This document shows positions 21,544-33,026 of a stretch of 64,000 nucleotides of DNA, in pieces (within the stretch, counting starts at the first letter, position 1; each line of letters starts with the position of its first letter). Source of the stretch: Arcanobacterium bovis (lineage in GTDB: Bacteria > Actinomycetota > Actinomycetes > Actinomycetales > Actinomycetaceae); the NCBI RefSeq assembly GCF_004331995.1, contig NZ_SJDT01000001.1:310001-374000 (forward strand), written 5' to 3'. Under the pieces are notes generated by a model. The model saw nothing but the letters and a program-made list of their open reading frames with translations. It was not told the DNA's origin and made no database searches. The translations under genes were made by a program, and so were the position numbers.

Positions 21544-23988
21544 TTATGCAGTTGCCGGTGAAGCGAGTGCCTTCCCTTTCAGGGAAAGTGCAAACGATCC
21601 ACCCAAACCAATCAGCAAGAATACTGCTGCGCCGAGTGCCAATCCACCAATAGAGCCGCCGGAGAGAACAGCGCGGATCAGGTCGGATCCATTCTCTAAT
21701 GGGGAAATTTTCCCGAGAGCCCGTAGCCACGGCGATGTGCCCTCGGTAATACCAATAACCAGCGTGAGAGCGAGCAAACCAATAGCGATTGCACGCCCAA
21801 TATTGCCGAGCCAGCCTACCAGCGCATGCATGATGAACAGGAAGCTCGCTCCAAGCACTGCGCCAACGAGAATCAACGACACAACAGTTGCGCCACTGGC
21901 CTCCGCTGCGAATGCTCCAATACCGCCAAGCACTGCTCCCATCAGCACCGATACTGCACCGACCTTGGTGAGTCCAGCTGCCCAAGACTTGCTCGATGCA
22001 GCCCCCGCAACGGCGCGCCCTGCAAATGCCAAGAACGCGACTCCCCAGATAAGGCCAGCAATCAAAATGCCGATCATTGCAAAGGTTCCTGGTTGTACGA
22101 TGTCCATCTTCATAACCGGAACAGCAGCGGCTTTAGACAACACTTCACGATCGCTCTTCGTGAACTTGGGCAAATCTCCTTGGCCTTTAACAAGCTCAGA
22201 GGTGAAAGTCTTTGTGCCTTGGTTCAACTGAACAGTGCCGTCGTTGATTTGCTTCAATCCGTCATTCAGTTCACCTGCACCGGAACGAGCTTCATCAATT
22301 CCAGCACTCAATTCACCAGCACCGGAGTTCAACTGCTTAGCTCCGGTCGCGAGTTCTCCAGCCCCCATCCTGACTTCCAGTGCACCAGAGTTGAGCTGGG
22401 AAACTCCCGCTACAAGCTGGCTTGCGCCACCCGCTAGTTGCGACGTGCCTTGAGCGAGCTCAGCAGCTCCGGAACTCACCTGCGACGTACCACCAGCAAG
22501 TTCATTCGCTCCTCCAGCCAGCGATTGCGCGCCTGCATCCACCTGCTGCACACCTGCGTCAAGCTGACCAGCACCGGTAGCAAGTTCGTTGGCATATCCC
22601 TGAACTTGCATTACACCCTGCTCAAGCTGCGTTGCTCCGGTATTCAATCCATCGTTGTTTGCAACAAGCTGGTTCAACCCCGCCTGCAGTTCATTCATAC
22701 CGGTACTCATTGTTTGAATATCAGGTGCCGTGGCTCCAGCCAGCGCTTGCACGCCACCTATAAATGAGCCGGTGGCAATTTGCATTACCGCTTGGTCGCA
22801 ACCTGCTGGACTTCCAAGTTGAGTACAAACCGCAGCGACTTGCTGATCAATCCCAGATGCTTGGAAACCTGCCACAAAATCGCTCATTGGCGGCGTAGCC
22901 GGATCTGCATTCGGATCTGCCAATACTTTCATAGTGGCAGAAAGCTGCGATAATCCGGCTGCGAGCTGATCAGCGCCCGGCTTTGCTTGTGCCACGCCCG
23001 CTGTATATTGAGCTACGCCGTCTTTTAGACTAGTGGCTCCCGCCTGAAGTTCTGGAATACCCGCAGCAAACTGTACTGCACCTGCTGCTAGTTCCGCAGA
23101 TCCTGCCTTGAGTACAGTAGTTCCAGCTGCCAATTCACCAGCACCGCCTGCAACTTGCTGCGCCCCGGCGTCGAGACTAGATGCGCCCACAGCGAGATCA
23201 TTTGCACCACTATTGAGCTGTGCTGCTCCTGCGCCAAGTTCATTCGCACCAGCAGATAATTCGCCGGTACCAGCGGAAAGCTGCCCAGCACCGTCGGAAA
23301 GCTGCTTCGCACCAAACGACAACTCGTTCGTGCCGGAGTAAAGCTCGTGACCGCCGTCGGCAAGTTGCCGCATGCCATCAACTAGCTCACCAGCGCCGCT
23401 ACTGGCTTCAGACGTACCCGCTGCAAGCTCGGTGCTTCCCGACTCAATTTGGCGCGCGCCGTCTACGATCTGCACAAAGGAATTGCCAACTTGGTTGAAT
23501 CCGTCCATCACGCCGTCCACATAACCGGTGGTGAGCGCTTGATTGACCGAATCAGTAGCAACGCTATTGACTATTTGCGCGATCAGACCATCGGCCAGCG
23601 TCGTGTTTTCGCTGACGTCGATCAGAAGCTTTGCATTGTTGACCTGGCTCGCTTTGTTGTTGGTAAACGAGCTGGCATTGGCGGTGAAATCTTTGGGGAT
23701 TGTCACGGAAGCAGCATAAGTTCCGTCCTTTAGGCCTCGTTCAGCAGTAACAGCGTCTACCACTTCCCAAGCAATATTAGGATCGTCAATCATGCCCTTG
23801 GAAACTTCGTCGCCAAGTTTCATAGATTCGCCAGCTACCATTGCCGACTTATCGTTATTCACGATTGCGCCCTTCGGGGCTGACTTCGAGTTGGCGAGAC
23901 CAAGAAATACTCCAAACACCATAAGTGGGAGCAAAACCATCGCAATGATGGTCCGCCAAGAAGCCGTCTTGATGTTACTCTCCGACAT
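21544..23988 (-). CDS. YhgE/Pip-type membrane protein with two long heptad arrays
   Basis: An 814-residue protein from the ATG at 23986-23988 (AGAGGT upstream); the frame stays open 37 codons further. TM1 (about 14-33) is followed by an extracytoplasmic region (about 40-570), then about five C-terminal TM helices and a short tail. The outer region carries two arrays of the X-X-X-Leu-X-X-Gly heptad with consensus (E/Q)LxxGA: about 25 units from residue 173 and about 23 units later, split by a segment holding two Cys (VCTQLGSPAGCDQ). The family includes phage receptors and ABC-2-like or type VII secretion-linked proteins. No secretion genes are nearby, so its role here is open. Confidence 0.88.
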   Translation of the reverse strand: MSESNIKTASWRTIIAMVLLPLMVFGVFLGLANSKSAPKGAIVNNDKSAMVAGESMKLGDEVSKGMIDDPNIAWEVVDAVTAERGLKDGTYAASVTIPKDFTANASSFTNNKASQVNNAKLLIDVSENTTLADGLIAQIVNSVATDSVNQALTTGYVDGVMDGFNQVGNSFVQIVDGARQIESGSTELAAGTSEASSGAGELVDGMRQLADGGHELYSGTNELSFGAKQLSDGAGQLSAGTGELSAGANELGAGAAQLNSGANDLAVGASSLDAGAQQVAGGAGELAAGTTVLKAGSAELAAGAVQFAAGIPELQAGATSLKDGVAQYTAGVAQAKPGADQLAAGLSQLSATMKVLADPNADPATPPMSDFVAGFQASGIDQQVAAVCTQLGSPAGCDQAVMQIATGSFIGGVQALAGATAPDIQTMSTGMNELQAGLNQLVANNDGLNTGATQLEQGVMQVQGYANELATGAGQLDAGVQQVDAGAQSLAGGANELAGGTSQVSSGAAELAQGTSQLAGGASQLVAGVSQLNSGALEVRMGAGELATGAKQLNSGAGELSAGIDEARSGAGELNDGLKQINDGTVQLNQGTKTFTSELVKGQGDLPKFTKSDREVLSKAAAVPVMKMDIVQPGTFAMIGILIAGLIWGVAFLAFAGRAVAGAASSKSWAAGLTKVGAVSVLMGAVLGGIGAFAAEASGATVVSLILVGAVLGASFLFIMHALVGWLGNIGRAIAIGLLALTLVIGITEGTSPWLRALGKISPLENGSDLIRAVLSGGSIGGLALGAAVFLLIGLGGSFALSLKGKALASPATA

Positions 23989-24332: not shown

Positions 24333-24361
24333 TTGAACTGTTAGGCACCGTTGTTTATGCT
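24333..24361 (+). promoter_or_regulatory. Sigma70-type promoter of the leader peptide and DAACS gene
   Basis: TTGAAC (24333-24338), a 17-bp spacer, and TATGCT (24356-24361). Both boxes are near consensus and the spacing is ideal. The start of transcription would be about 24368, leaving a 5' region of about 29 nt before the leader ATG. Confidence 0.7.
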
Positions 24362-24396
24362 TCTTAAATCGGATATTACCGACTCAAGGAGATTCC

Positions 24397-24498
24397 ATGT
24401 ACCGCATCATTGCACCATACGCACCTGCTCACCGCCTTTCGTGCGGCTGTAGCTGCTGCGCGGCTGCGTGCAACGATCGCTGTTGTTGCATGGCATAA
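24397..24498 (+). CDS. Cysteine-rich leader peptide, probable attenuator
   Basis: A 33-codon ORF too short for ordinary gene calling. The ATG has an excellent ribosome site (AAGGAG, 5-6 bp away). The peptide starts MYRIIAPYAPAHRL and then has eight cysteines in 16 residues (16, 18, 20, 21, 25, 29, 30, 31), ending CCCMA. Tyr, Pro and Ala precede them, with no signal peptide. The ORF sits between a strong promoter and a DAACS symporter gene, 236 bp before its start codon. Runs of Cys codons in such a place fit a leader whose ribosome stalls when Cys-tRNA is short, as described for polycysteine short ORFs of mycobacteria. A metal-binding micro-protein is a less likely alternative. Confidence 0.75.
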   Translation: MYRIIAPYAPAHRLSCGCSCCAAACNDRCCCMA

Positions 24499-24510
24499 CT
24501 TTTAGCGTTT

Positions 24511-24601
24511 GCAAGCACGTAGAGCCTTGCCCTAATTAATACGACGCAGTTGCACCATCGTTTTTCTGCTTGTGCAGCTCTATTATTTTCCGTTGCACAA
24601 G
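24511..24601 (+). promoter_or_regulatory. Hairpins between the Cys leader and the DAACS gene
   Basis: GCAAG/CTTGC (24511-24530) makes a small stem just after the leader. CTTGTGCA (24569-24576) pairs perfectly with TGCACAAG (24594-24601). The GTGCA within the latter can also pair with an upstream TGCAC (24551-24555), so alternative folds are possible. No stem is followed by a clear T run, so whether control is at termination or translation cannot be decided. Confidence 0.35.
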
Positions 24602-24734
24602 ATCAGTCCACTATGCACCGGCTCGCCTTATTGTATCGTGCACGCCACAAGGTCTAGAAAAATTCTCGCCTTTCGACGAGACTGAAGGTAACGGCGTCGT
24701 CCCAAAAGATAACCCCATCAGAAAGGACAACCCT

Positions 24735-26189
24735 ATGCAATCCGCAACCTCACCGCAAAACTCTAAAAAGAGGAAAATTCTTCCATCTTTCGGCACACAA
24801 ATCCTGCTCAGCCTTATTATTGGCGGCCTACTTGGTTGGGTCGCTCTCCGAATGGGCGCTCCCGCACCCGACAAGCCCAATTGGCTCACGTTCACCCTCA
24901 CTACCATCGGATCTTCTTTTATCACCCTACTGAAGGCAGTAGTTCCGGTACTCGTATTCACCGCAATCGTTGCGTCGATCGCTAATCTTCGCGGCGTTGC
25001 AAATGGCACACGGCTCGCCGTGAAAACTTTGCTCTGGTTTGCCATCACTGCGTTTATCGCCGTTTCGATCGGTATCGCGATTGGCTTGACCACCAATCCT
25101 GGCAAAAACGCCGCAATCTCTACCGCCACTAGCTCGAAACCTAGCCACACCGGCGATTGGCTCGATTTCCTCGTGGGGCTCATACCGTCGAATTTCCTTG
25201 GCATTCAAGCCAGTAGCACAGCAGACGCTGCGAACAATACGATCACAACATCGCTCAATTTCAACGTATTACAAATCATCGTCATTGCGCTGGTGGTGGG
25301 TGCAGCGGCACTTCGACAAGGTCAGAAAGCGGAAACTTTCCTCAGTTTCAACGCTTCGCTACTGTCAGTGGTTCAGCGAATTTTGTGGTGGATTATCCGA
25401 CTTGCACCAATCGGCACAATCGGTTTGGTGGGTCGCGCAGTGGCCACCTACGGTTGGGCTTCAATCGCACAGCTCAGCGTGTTTGCGATATCGATCTATC
25501 TCGGGCTAGTGCTCGTACTATTCGTGGTTTACCCCATCATTCTTCGTACAAATGGACTGAGCATTCGGCAGTTCTTCCGCGGAGCCTGGCCCGCAATTCA
25601 ACTGGCATTCGTCTCGCGTTCGTCAATCGGCACATTACCTGTTACTCAAGCCGTCACTGAAAAGAACCTTGGCGTGCCGTCGAGTTACGCCTCGTTTGCC
25701 GTACCCCTCGCCTCGACCACAAAAATGGACGGGTGCGCGTCGATTTATCCTGCTATTTCAGCAATTTTCGTGTCGCAGTTCTTCAATATGCCACTGCGCC
25801 CCGTCGATTATCTGCTGATTATTTTCGTTTCGGTGGTGGGTTCCGCCGCCACTGCAGGATTGACCGGCGCCACCGTAATGCTCACACTCATGCTCTCCAC
25901 CTTGGGTTTACCCCTCGAAGGGGTAGGCCTGTTGCTAGCAATTGACCCTATTCTCGACATGGGTCGTACGGCTGTTAACGTTGCAGGTCAGATAGTTGTT
26001 GCATCGGTTGTAGCGAAACGCGAAGGCATTATCGACATGGATCAATACAATTCGGCAGTTGCGTCCGATTTATTTGATGATGACGACGTTGCCACAGCTT
26101 CTACAGCGGACGTTAGCGCTGCTCCTGTTCGTAAGGAACCGACGTCGGAACCATCGCTCTCGCCAGAAAGCGCATCGGCAACACGCTAA
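24735..26189 (+). CDS. Dicarboxylate/amino acid:cation symporter (DAACS), candidate cystine carrier
   Basis: A 484-residue membrane transporter when started at the ATG 24735 (AAAGGA 7 bp before); the frame is open 55 codons upstream through the leader region. About eight TM helices and two re-entrant loops of the glutamate-transporter fold: the serine-rich loop VSRSSIGTLPVTQA (HP1) and the segment DPILDMGRTAVNVAG (TM8) are clear, with STTKMDGCASIYPAISA as TM7. Family members carry glutamate, aspartate, C4-dicarboxylates, serine/threonine or cystine (TcyP). The Cys-rich leader ahead suggests cystine or a sulfur amino acid; that is inference. The last 45 residues are Ser/Ala/Glu/Pro-rich and disordered. 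Confidence 0.9.
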   Translation: MQSATSPQNSKKRKILPSFGTQILLSLIIGGLLGWVALRMGAPAPDKPNWLTFTLTTIGSSFITLLKAVVPVLVFTAIVASIANLRGVANGTRLAVKTLLWFAITAFIAVSIGIAIGLTTNPGKNAAISTATSSKPSHTGDWLDFLVGLIPSNFLGIQASSTADAANNTITTSLNFNVLQIIVIALVVGAAALRQGQKAETFLSFNASLLSVVQRILWWIIRLAPIGTIGLVGRAVATYGWASIAQLSVFAISIYLGLVLVLFVVYPIILRTNGLSIRQFFRGAWPAIQLAFVSRSSIGTLPVTQAVTEKNLGVPSSYASFAVPLASTTKMDGCASIYPAISAIFVSQFFNMPLRPVDYLLIIFVSVVGSAATAGLTGATVMLTLMLSTLGLPLEGVGLLLAIDPILDMGRTAVNVAGQIVVASVVAKREGIIDMDQYNSAVASDLFDDDDVATASTADVSAAPVRKEPTSEPSLSPESASATR

Positions 26190-28318: not shown

Positions 28319-31300
28319 TCACTTACGAATCGCAAAAACGTACGATCCTGCACCAATCATTGCCAACACACCAGTTCCGAGAAGTCCCCACTGCCAGAAT
28401 GGCGTACCGCCACTACCCAAGGCTTTCGAGCCATTTGCTGGGTTCGTCAGTGAAGAAACGTGCTCGTCCGGAGCGTCAAGTGCCTGCACAGCATTCTCAG
28501 TGCCAGCAATGGCATTCGGATCAGCCTGAGCAGCATTCGGATCTGCCGGAGTTGGAGTTTGCATCAAAGCATTGGCCACTTGTCCGGCGTCACCGGATGA
28601 AGCTGCACCCACAGACGCCGCCGCTCCGCGACGCGCAGCCCGACCAGCACTACCAGTCTCTGCTCGCGAACTTGGCGTTACCGCAGAAGTCGTATCAGCA
28701 GGTGCACTACTTACCGGCACAGCCGCAGTAGCTGGTTGTGGTGCTGGCACACCTGATCCAGGCGCAGTATCGCGCCATACTGGGATGGCTTCGCCCTTGT
28801 TGAGGTGGGATACTACCTCGTTAACAGGTAGCGGCTGGCGGCCCGCTGGCCCTGGCTGAGCTGTGCTAGCTGGATCAGTCGGAGCTCCGGCATTTTCAAG
28901 ATGTTCCTTGCCCGCAGTAACGGAAGTATCTCCCACCAAGAAACGCGCGGTGAGCACCTTCTCGACCTTCGATCCGTCAACTAGCTGCATGGTGTACACA
29001 AAATCCATGGTGTACGTGCCAGGTGCGGTGAAATAGAACGCCTGGTGATCGTGATTCGGCTTCGCATAGGTTACCGTGGCATCAGGAGTCTCGGTGTCGA
29101 GCAGCTTCGTAAAGGTACCAATGCCAGAATGACCCGTGATCATTCGACCTGGTCCGCGCACATTACGCAACGAAACCTTCACGCCTTCTTTGCCAACGCC
29201 GTCGTACTTGACGCTCAGCGTAGAAAATCCTACCCAAGGCAATCCATCTTCCTGAGCTTCAGGAAGCATCCATACACCCTGCGGAGCTGCCTTTTTCAAT
29301 TCCGCATATTCTGGATTGTTCGGAATCACCTTCCACGCAGAATCAGGCACGGCGTAGGCAAAATTCCCTGATTGGTGCATCAATGGCTTGGAAGGTACGG
29401 CGGTGTCGTGCACAAATACTCGTGCGTCTTTACCGTCGTAGCTCAGCATTTGATCCATGTGTCCCTTGGTGATGAGCGCGCCAAGCACACCTGGCAACGA
29501 GGCATTCAACTGCGTGCGAGCCTCGGCCAGCGAAATTTTCGCTGGTGCAACCGGTGTAGTTGGTGTAGTGGTGGTGCCACCATTGTCACCTGTACCAGAC
29601 GGCGGTGTAGGCGTCGTATTAATAACGCTTCCAGGTAGAAGCTGCGGCTGCGGCACACTGTTAGGATCGTCCGCGAGAGCCACAGCTTTCTCGTAGGCCA
29701 TCTTCCGCATCACATTGATCGTGTCATTTCCAACAACGAAGTACACAGTGCGCGAATCGTAGGAGGAATTACCCTTTGCGTCTTTGGCTGTCACATCGTA
29801 TTCGATCATGTACAGACCTGGCCGAGTAAACAGGTGCGATTCATCCAGCACTGCTCCCTCGTCGAGAATATCTCGAGGGGTTTCACTAGCGGTATCAAGC
29901 CGGATCTTGAGAATGTTATTGCTCATATTGCCACTGAGGTAGCGCGCTTCTTTTGGCATCTGCTTGTAGAAAACGCTGTACACAATTGGTTGGGAAACTT
30001 GGTCTTTGGTGATCGCCGAAAAATCGAAACCAAGTGAAGCATTTTTGTCGGTGTTTTTCTCCGGAAGATGCCACACGTTTCCGTTCAACGACGACTTATA
30101 CAAGTCTCCTGCCTCTTGCGTTACCTTTTGACGCAAAGTATCTGGAACCTCAATTGCGAACGCTTTATCTTTATTCACATCTTGTTCTTTTCCGGGCACC
30201 GTAGCATCAACAAGTTTCATGTTGAGATAGTTGTTCTCGCTTGTTCCTGGCGCTGGATATGACCCTCTCAGCACATACTTGCCAGCAGAAACAACAGTAT
30301 TCGGAATAAATTTTGGACTATACGTAACGCCTACGATCTGATCACGGATCGCCTTCTCGTAATCAGCTTGGTTTCCGTTGGACGACGGCGGTGGAGTCGT
30401 TCCACCGGTCGTTCCGCCGTTTGTACCACCCGTGGTATCACCTGGAGTCGTCGTGTCACCACCTGGCGCAGGTACCTTGCCAGCCAAAATATCTTCCGCC
30501 GAGAACTTGATCGGGTTCGAGCCCGTCGTGGTTCCCTTCGGAAGTTCCACGTCGTCATCGGTACCTACCAGCCACGTAATAGCGGAAGGCTGCGACACAA
30601 TAGTTTGCTTCGCCAGATTCTGGTAGCTCGCTTCAAAGCCTAGCTGATACACACCCGCTTGGGAGAAGGTCCAGCTCCAGTGACCGTGACTTCCCACATT
30701 CAACTTCACTGGTGGCAGTGCAGGATCAGAGGAAAGTCCGCGGCGTGGAGGCTCAAATCCAACTGTACGCCAGACTTCAACCTTTCCTGGACCCGTAACC
30801 TTTGAAAGGCGGAGTTTTACTTCGTCGAGAAGAACGTCGGCTGGAAGCTTCACCTCGTGATGAGAATCAAAAGCTCCAAGTCCCGCCCAAACTGGACGCC
30901 AACCATCAATTTCTTGCTGTGGAGCATGCCAAAGAATTGTTTTCGGCGCCCCTAAAAACGAGTATCCAGCTGTATCAGGCACGATCATACGGGAAATCTC
31001 TTGCCCGTCTGAGCTGCGCGCATCTGGCGCAAGACGCACACAGACAGTGGAAGGATCTTTCACCACTTGCTGCCCGTCAACAACGGTTACGGTGAAGACG
31101 CCGTTTACGCGCGTCACATAACCAGCGTCAACATGCGCGTGGTGGAGAAGCTTCTTTCCAGCACAAATGTGCGGAACTTTGTTTTCGGCATCCGGTTTTG
31201 CACCCGGTAGCGCTGCTTTGCTACCAAACGGAACCTTGAGATCGGCCGGAACCATATCGCCATAACCAGGATCACCAGGCTTATGCTCAGTATCTGCTGT

Positions 31301-31417
31301 GCCCGCAGATCCAGAATCGGCTGCAAAAGCAGTCGAAGAACCAGAAACTCCTGGTAGAGCGCTGAGCAACAATCCGCAAGCGAGGATTGGCGCAGCAATC
31401 ACTTTTTTAATTTTCAC
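28319..31417 (-). CDS. Large cell-surface protein with three choice-of-anchor M domains
   Basis: A 1032-residue exported protein, last in the operon. Signal peptide about 1-32 (AFA-AD). Domain 1 (about 92-290) begins HAHVDAGY and carries SHGHWSWTFSQAGVYQLGF; domain 2 (about 385-580) has ESHLFTRPGLYMIEYDVTAK; domain 3 (about 660-850) begins KGHMDQML and has KPNHDHQAFYFTAPGTYTMDF. A Thr/Gly/Pro linker separates 1 and 2. The last 170 residues are Ala/Pro/Ser-rich with one TM helix (about 1008-1028) and a tiny RK tail. No LPXTG motif is present. It corresponds to the transporter-associated surface protein type (TIGR03773-like). A 4-bp overlap joins it to the permease gene. It probably captures substrate at the surface. 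Confidence 0.85.
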   Translation of the reverse strand: MKIKKVIAAPILACGLLLSALPGVSGSSTAFAADSGSAGTADTEHKPGDPGYGDMVPADLKVPFGSKAALPGAKPDAENKVPHICAGKKLLHHAHVDAGYVTRVNGVFTVTVVDGQQVVKDPSTVCVRLAPDARSSDGQEISRMIVPDTAGYSFLGAPKTILWHAPQQEIDGWRPVWAGLGAFDSHHEVKLPADVLLDEVKLRLSKVTGPGKVEVWRTVGFEPPRRGLSSDPALPPVKLNVGSHGHWSWTFSQAGVYQLGFEASYQNLAKQTIVSQPSAITWLVGTDDDVELPKGTTTGSNPIKFSAEDILAGKVPAPGGDTTTPGDTTGGTNGGTTGGTTPPPSSNGNQADYEKAIRDQIVGVTYSPKFIPNTVVSAGKYVLRGSYPAPGTSENNYLNMKLVDATVPGKEQDVNKDKAFAIEVPDTLRQKVTQEAGDLYKSSLNGNVWHLPEKNTDKNASLGFDFSAITKDQVSQPIVYSVFYKQMPKEARYLSGNMSNNILKIRLDTASETPRDILDEGAVLDESHLFTRPGLYMIEYDVTAKDAKGNSSYDSRTVYFVVGNDTINVMRKMAYEKAVALADDPNSVPQPQLLPGSVINTTPTPPSGTGDNGGTTTTPTTPVAPAKISLAEARTQLNASLPGVLGALITKGHMDQMLSYDGKDARVFVHDTAVPSKPLMHQSGNFAYAVPDSAWKVIPNNPEYAELKKAAPQGVWMLPEAQEDGLPWVGFSTLSVKYDGVGKEGVKVSLRNVRGPGRMITGHSGIGTFTKLLDTETPDATVTYAKPNHDHQAFYFTAPGTYTMDFVYTMQLVDGSKVEKVLTARFLVGDTSVTAGKEHLENAGAPTDPASTAQPGPAGRQPLPVNEVVSHLNKGEAIPVWRDTAPGSGVPAPQPATAAVPVSSAPADTTSAVTPSSRAETGSAGRAARRGAAASVGAASSGDAGQVANALMQTPTPADPNAAQADPNAIAGTENAVQALDAPDEHVSSLTNPANGSKALGSGGTPFWQWGLLGTGVLAMIGAGSYVFAIRK

Positions 31418-32292
31418 GGGGCGACCTTTCTAAGTCGTACCAATTTTGATAAAAATCCAGCAGCAATACCTCTGCGTGGAGCGAAGATCCATATGAGCAC
31501 AAACAACGCTGATGAGCAGAGCACAATGGCGGCACCTGTTGGCAAATTCCACTGCCACGAGGCCCAAACGCCAATAAATGCAGCGATAGAACCGAGCACC
31601 GGGCCAATCACCATCATGGTCACAACGCGATCTGTGAGCATACGCGCGCTCGCCGCCGGAGCGATGAGCAGCGCAAGAATTAAAATATTGCCGATTGACT
31701 GCACAGATATAACTACTGTGGCAGCAATAGCAAGGTAAAGAACGAGATCCACGAGCATCGATTTGATACCGAGTGCACGGGCGTGATCGCGGTCAATGCT
31801 TACCAGTACGATGTACGGGTGAAGCAACGCTAAAATGGCCAGAATAAAGAATCCTGAAGCTGCTACCACGATTAAGTCTGTATTGGTTACGCCTGAGAGC
31901 GAACCAAAGAGGAACGACTCCAACGATCCCGTATAGCCTGGTATCCGCGACATAATCACCAAACCGAGCGCAAATGCTGCTGCAAAGAATATTCCGATGA
32001 TGGAATCCTCACGCAACCTGCGGTTTTGGGAGAATGTGGTGATGAGAATGGCTACAACAAGACCCGCCACCGCGCCACCAAGCAAGATTGATCCTTGCAA
32101 AGCGAAGGCGATAGCGACGCCGGGAAACACGGCATGCGAGAGCGCGTCGCCAACGAACGAAAGCCCACGTAATACCACGTGTACACCCACAACTCCGCAC
32201 ACCACCGAGCTCATAATTGCAATCAAGAGCGCCCGCGGCAGGAAAGCCAACACTGGGTTCGTCAAATCATTTAAGAAATCAATCAGGCTCAT
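31414..32292 (-). CDS. Anchored-repeat ABC transporter permease, ZnuB-like
   Basis: A 292-residue permease from ATG 32290-32292, which overlaps the ATPase stop (ATGA) and follows GGGAG. About eight or nine TM helices of the ABC-3 (Zn/Mn) family, with VVLRGLSFVGDALSHAVFPGVAIAF and SLLISPAAAA-like ALLIAPAASARMLTDRV. Members of this subfamily (TIGR03770) occur only with anchored-repeat substrate-binding proteins. It should form the channel for a metal or other small ligand, with the ATPase gene just upstream. Confidence 0.9.
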   Translation of the reverse strand: MSLIDFLNDLTNPVLAFLPRALLIAIMSSVVCGVVGVHVVLRGLSFVGDALSHAVFPGVAIAFALQGSILLGGAVAGLVVAILITTFSQNRRLREDSIIGIFFAAAFALGLVIMSRIPGYTGSLESFLFGSLSGVTNTDLIVVAASGFFILAILALLHPYIVLVSIDRDHARALGIKSMLVDLVLYLAIAATVVISVQSIGNILILALLIAPAASARMLTDRVVTMMVIGPVLGSIAAFIGVWASWQWNLPTGAAIVLCSSALFVLIWIFAPRRGIAAGFLSKLVRLRKVAP

Positions 32293-33026
32293 CGCACTCC
32301 CATTCCTAGTGAACGCAATAATGCAGAATCGGCGCGCACCTGATACGTCTCCATCCATAAATCAGGAATGAGCAGATCTTGCGGTTTGCCAATTGCCCGA
32401 ACTGTCCGATTAATCATGGCAAGGCGATCACAAATATCCACCGCTTGACTCAAATCATGAGTAGACATCACAATCGACACTCCGCTACGAGCCAGCTCAA
32501 CGAAAAGATCGGAGAGCGCATCTTGATTGGGATGATCCAAACCAGAAAACGGCTCATCGAGAAGTAGCATGATCGGATTGGTAGCCAGAGCTCGTGCAAT
32601 GAGCACGCGTTGTTTTTGCCCGCCTGAGAGCTCAGCAATTGTGCGCGCACGCAGCTCATACAATCCAACTTTGCGCAGTGCAGCGTAAACGCCAGCCCAG
32701 TGCTCTTTGCGTGGTCGCCTAAACATCCCAAGTTCAGCAAGATACGACGTCATAACCATGCCTTCGATGGAAATTGGGTACGTCCAGTCAATATCTTGAC
32801 GTTGCGGTACGTATCCAATTTTCGCCGCGGATTCCTCGCTGTGGATTTTTCCCGAATCAAGCGGAATCAATCCCATAATTGAACGCATTAATGTGGTTTT
32901 ACCAGCACCATTAGGGCCAATCAGCCCCAAAAGTTCTCCCGGATATACATCGAGATTAATGTCGCGGAGCACATGGCGTCCGCCTAGGCTCACATTGAGC
33001 CCGTCGATGTGTACTACTGGTTTCAC
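32289..33026 (-). CDS. Anchored-repeat ABC transporter ATPase, ZnuC-like
   Basis: A 245-residue ATP-binding subunit. Walker A GPNGAGKTT (37-45), Q loop YVPQRQDIDW, signature LSGGQKQRV, Walker B MLLLDEPFSGLD and the H-loop His in MSTHDLSQ are all intact. It resembles metal importer ATPases (TIGR03771 type). Overlaps by 4 bp with the genes on both sides, showing tight translational coupling. Confidence 0.92.
   Translation of the reverse strand: MKPVVHIDGLNVSLGGRHVLRDINLDVYPGELLGLIGPNGAGKTTLMRSIMGLIPLDSGKIHSEESAAKIGYVPQRQDIDWTYPISIEGMVMTSYLAELGMFRRPRKEHWAGVYAALRKVGLYELRARTIAELSGGQKQRVLIARALATNPIMLLLDEPFSGLDHPNQDALSDLFVELARSGVSIVMSTHDLSQAVDICDRLAMINRTVRAIGKPQDLLIPDLWMETYQVRADSALLRSLGMGVR

Follow-up and report, generated by a model that had tools for sequence, protein, structure and literature searches.

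The stretch of Arcanobacterium bovis DNA that we analyzed (64,000 nucleotides, referred to here as the window) contains on its + strand a gene for a 484-amino-acid symporter of the DAACS/SDF family at 24735–26189 (Pfam SDF, PF00375, E 1.9e-91; signature GCASIYPA), which is preceded by a short, cysteine-rich ORF. Direct reading of the + strand places a putative promoter, TTGAAC-17-TATGCT, at 24333–24361 (TTGAAC at 24333–24338, TATGCT at 24356–24361). The promoter agrees with 8 of 12 consensus bases, a score low enough for the promoter-scanner listing to have missed it, and is conserved in the closest relative, genome G009, and partly in G008. Transcription from it would place roughly 29 nt of 5' leader ahead of the ORF. 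The ORF itself (24397–24498; ATG at 24397, stop codon TAA at 24496–24498) has 33 codons, encodes the peptide MYRIIAPYAPAHRLSCGCSCCAAACNDRCCCMA, and carries the Shine-Dalgarno sequence AAGGAG (24386–24391) 5 nt before its ATG. The spacer between leader and carrier (24499–24734) contains, close to its end, the Shine-Dalgarno sequence of the carrier, GAAAGGA (24721–24727), and a GAAAGG-type site is conserved before the carrier in most leader-bearing orthologs. The initial annotation had described this promoter, a well-started 33-codon ORF with eight Cys in 16 codons, and a gap of about 236 nt followed by the DAACS gene; the description is confirmed to the base, with a spacer of 236 nt and a DAACS gene at 24735. 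A longer in-frame ORF, in which the carrier would start at TTG 24570, was ruled out by the Shine-Dalgarno sequence and the alignment of orthologs, which place the start at 24735. We note a small hairpin, TCGG-ATATTA-CCGA (24369–24382), at the putative 5' end of the transcript, which is kept in G009 and altered in G008. Among the neighbors, the product of the divergent gene at 21544–23988 (- strand) is a YhgE/Pip (EsaA-like) membrane protein rich in L-x-x-G heptad repeats, and at 28319–32358 (- strand) a repeat protein anchored at the surface (choice-of-anchor M, with TIGR03769 repeats) lies next to an ABC permease of the anchored-repeat type (TIGR03770).

In the translated leader, Cys occupies residues 16, 18, 20, 21, 25, 29, 30, and 31, the eight codons spanning 24442–24489. 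Among the 1168 ORFs of 15–60 codons in the window, the leader alone exceeds 5 Cys in 16 codons; its density of 8 in 16 was reached by none of 16,010 ORFs simulated with a first-order Markov model. The Cys density of the leader is far beyond chance. A genome search for TGY-TGY-TGY was uninformative (293 matches, compared with 483 for the reversed-pattern control), an Rfam search gave one chance snoRNA match and nothing else, and a phage-protein origin of the peptide was considered and dropped when no match was found.

We searched ten genomes of the genus for the carrier and the leader. An ortholog of the carrier occurs in three of them, namely the genome of the window itself, G009 (89% identity), and G008 (about 79–81%), and strong matches to the leader (E below 1e-14) occur in exactly the same three; the other seven gave weak, chance-level leader matches, the best with an E of 0.015. 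As the initial annotation would have been refuted by Cys codons that are not conserved among close relatives, we compared the three peptides (MYRIIAPYAPAHRLSCGCSCCAAACNDRCCCMA in the window, MQRITALNVPAHRLMRGCSCVSSCSEPCCCMA in G009, and MRGIIAQNALSNRSVRGLCCVDLSRACCCCC in G008) and found that the ORF is kept in both other carrier-bearing members and that its terminal CCC run is invariant. The sequences can be aligned over the promoter, the Shine-Dalgarno sequence (in G009 and G008, AGGAGA followed by TCCATG or CTCCATG), the ORF, and about 20 nt past the stop codon, where a conserved element, GCGYTYGCAAGCRCG, lies at 24505–24519 (+ strand); the rest of the spacer, which measures 200–340 nt, fails to align. 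Further, the identity of the leader peptide falls to 59% in G009 and 35% in G008, compared with 89% and 79% for the carrier. The leader thus keeps only its place, its start region, and its Cys run, as would a regulatory leader and unlike a working peptide.

Outside the genus, elsewhere in the family and the order, peptides such as NTWNLTARRAVDLCRQASAMCATRRCCPAR precede orthologs of the carrier. These leaders score 28–36 bits against the NCBIfam model NF042934 (“putative leader peptide,” cis_reg_atten), for which the HMM cut-off is over 27 bits, and also match the Cys-rich leader model Ms5788A, more weakly and below cut-off. When 59 genomes were searched with NF042934 in an unbiased way, 19 sites were identified, six of which lie directly upstream of the carrier (in genomes G031, G051, G011, G053, G042, and G037). 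With a profile built from 19 leaders, matches were detected before 36 of 57 actinobacterial orthologs of the carrier and before none of 23 from alphaproteobacteria (80 named loci in total); 16 of the 36 positives had supplied the profile, and the other 20 were held out. The matches scored 12–53 bits, compared with a maximum of 5.1 bits in the reverse-strand control. Members of the NF042934 class mostly have one to three Cys, whereas the leader in the window has eight and lacks the VDL motif; such poly-Cys leaders without VDL are found in its own genus and in near relatives (L050, L056, L082, and others). Neither the window leader nor that of G008 matched NF042934 at E up to 10, and no family model matched the leader of the genus. 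However, the G008 leader has a mixed form, CCVDLSRACCCCC, with VDLSR plus a Cys run, which links the poly-Cys and VDL forms. Because the window leader matches no model, we class it by its position and by this intermediate form rather than by a family score. Two further features of the relatives are recorded here. First, the Cys codons of their leaders (L046–L124) are TGT in 67 cases and TGC in 17, compared with 119 and 473, respectively, in long ORFs of the same loci, where the genes of GC-rich relatives prefer TGC; the P value of 6e-27 for this bias overstates the independence of the leaders, which share ancestry, and the bias is absent in the genus of the window. Second, Cellulosimicrobium-type loci (L046–L049) have a strong hairpin, GCGGGCGC-TCGT-GCGCCCGC, just upstream of the Shine-Dalgarno sequence and about 30–60 nt before the carrier.

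A second leader of the same sort is present in the genome of the window. The cysK-cysE locus (L159, G000:C28:61914-60458, - strand) is preceded, 200 nt upstream, by a Cys-rich ORF that begins with ATG, encodes MQNTSYTRSLPCFFCLCTCR, and carries the Shine-Dalgarno-like sequence GAAAGGGG, and a short ORF ending in Cys lies before cysK in all eight members of the genus for which upstream sequence is available. This agrees with Seliverstov et al. (2005), who described leaders of cys and cbs operons with Cys runs near the stop codon and without terminators, and who suggested a role for Rho (PMC1262725). The targets there are biosynthetic and the target here is a transporter, and in the present case the relatives consistently have a C-rich spacer. 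The cysK leader and its accord with the cys operon leaders imply that cysteine is likely to be the signal at the carrier as well.

The initial annotation had proposed leader-peptide control of the carrier, and the conservation in the genus, the related actinobacterial leaders, and the cysK leader all support this proposal. Because an ORF of Cys codons is kept before the transporter across many actinobacteria, cysteine supply is very probably read through the leader, and we hold cysteine-responsive leader control of the carrier to be highly probable. When Cys-tRNA is ample, the ribosome would pass the Cys codons and depart at the stop codon, leaving the C-rich untranslated spacer bare, and transcription would end early, most likely via Rho. 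When Cys-tRNA is scarce, the ribosome would stall on the Cys codons, access to the conserved element just past the stop codon would be altered, and the carrier gene would be expressed. The response to cysteine is a prediction, and the direction of the switch (on when cysteine is short) is inferred from the leader class. Concerning the step that ends transcription, the stretch before the carrier in leader-bearing relatives has a C/G ratio of 1.51 (1.01 in other upstream regions; P 1e-9), and C exceeds G in each of the 27 leader-to-gene spacers examined. Orthologs initially scored as leaderless are also C-rich before the carrier, and the later profile found leaders in several of them. The genome of the window has a Rho gene (589 bits). 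Its own spacer is just mildly C-rich (1.36; the + strand of the window as a whole has 1.15), and for that reason the Rho step draws on the relatives; we give it about an even chance.

We rank a switch at the ribosome site second to a Rho-type switch because of the C-rich spacers in the relatives and the Rho gene. In such a switch, the leader RNA would pair with the ribosome site of the carrier, which a ribosome stalled at the Cys codons would free. Cysteine genes of Mycobacterium smegmatis are described as under translation attenuation (PMC13236596), and, in the window, CCTTTC (24435–24440), beside the first Cys codon, complements GAAAGG of the carrier Shine-Dalgarno sequence. However, CCTTTC is not preserved in G009, and in all three genus sequences the accessibility of the carrier Shine-Dalgarno sequence hardly changed when a ribosome was modeled on the start, Cys, or stop codons. 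We regard this translational switch as a possibility of somewhat lower standing. Pairing of the leader with the carrier Shine-Dalgarno sequence as a general rule was rejected, the pairing not being preserved.

A different question is what the carrier transports. Compared with the paralogs of E. coli, it scores highest with TcyP, the cystine/sulfocysteine symporter (b1729; 153 bits), followed by GltP (136 bits), DctA (134 bits), and SstT (72 bits). Like TcyP, which belongs to the same DAACS family, members of the carrier clade carry, at the substrate site, an insertion of one residue together with the motif GCAx[IL]YPA, a combination absent from DctA, GltP, SstT, and the solved Asp/Glu carriers that were aligned. 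The identity to TcyP is, however, 29%, and in the tree a 97/97 split places the carrier on the same side as TcyP and the long-branched SstT, in a clade (99/99) separate from that of TcyP (100/100). Close plasmid homologs bear generic names only. The suggestion in the initial annotation that the carrier takes up cystine, made as a guess, gains support from the TcyP-type signature. The leader might instead sense cysteine while the carrier moves another substrate, such as aspartate or a dicarboxylate, that is needed when cysteine is short. The generic family does include Asp, Glu, and dicarboxylate carriers, and the overall identity to TcyP is low, but the TcyP signature at the substrate site argues against this explanation, as does a separate DctA-like paralog in the genome (28% identical to the carrier and 47% to DctA), which has no such leader. 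We therefore consider another substrate rather unlikely and cystine/cysteine the substrate to be favored; the carrier probably imports cystine (alternatively, cysteine or a similar sulfur amino acid). Overall, the conservation, the leader class, the cysK leader, and the TcyP signature give good support to cysteine-responsive control, by the leader, of what is probably a cystine importer.

Returning to how the leader might act, we note that classical attenuation, in which an intrinsic terminator competes with an antiterminator, is largely refuted already and is very improbable here. The initial annotation had described stems that can pair in alternative ways, and short inverted repeats with several partners do exist, but folding gave the leader a stability no greater than that of shuffled sequences (z = -0.50). 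It had also conceded that it saw no obvious terminator or hidden ribosome site; correspondingly, we found neither an intrinsic terminator on the + strand before the carrier nor ribosome-dependent masking, and actinobacterial cys leaders likewise lacked terminators in 2005 (PMC1262725). A consensus fold of six Cellulosimicrobium-type leaders consisted mostly of invariant pairs, with a covariation term that was not supportive. Least credible of all is a functional Cys-rich peptide, metal-binding or secreted, that does not act in cis: the strong Shine-Dalgarno sequence and conserved promoter would suit one, but the non-Cys sequence is poorly kept, as the identities given above indicate, and the ORF keeps its place ahead of the carrier.

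Polycysteine short-ORF attenuators of mycobacteria (NCBIfam models Ms5788A and Ms4527A) were reportedly described by Canestrari et al. in 2020. According to two related papers (PMC13236596 and PMC9094748), these resemble the leader in the window in that a short ORF with consecutive Cys codons toward its end precedes a gene for sulfur amino acid supply (here a probable one), but they are leaderless, whereas the ORF here has a Shine-Dalgarno sequence of its own. They differ further in that the target here is a DAACS symporter and the leader of the genus falls outside the models. Cys-leader control is thus a known type of switch; for a DAACS target, no earlier report was found in the literature searched. 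If the assignment is right, Cys-leader control would extend from sulfur assimilation to a secondary transporter, phylum-wide, and regulation alone would give an uncharacterized clade of carriers a testable substrate. Because leaders are rarely annotated, a survey of leaders would be a cheap route to the substrates of carriers. Further, the off-switch at actinobacterial Cys leaders (Rho or a ribosome site) was left open in 2005, and a short, well-delimited leader such as this one is suited to settling it.

Tentatively, and with more doubt than attaches to the control itself, the leaders may be read at the level of the clade. The TcyP-like cystine symporters of actinobacteria would form a large, as yet unnamed clade governed by an ancestral Cys leader; GC-rich members would combine UGU Cys codons with a Rho-loading spacer, so that slow decoding of UGU is coupled to Rho, and Actinomycetaceae, the genus of the window among them, would have swapped the conserved VDL peptide for a longer Cys run. 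Carriers with 60–66% identity to the one in the window also occur in alphaproteobacteria (Devosia, Agrobacterium, and Rhizobium; L084–L088, L093–L100, and others) without any Cys leader, which suggests that the gene was transferred between phyla and that the control was lost or gained.
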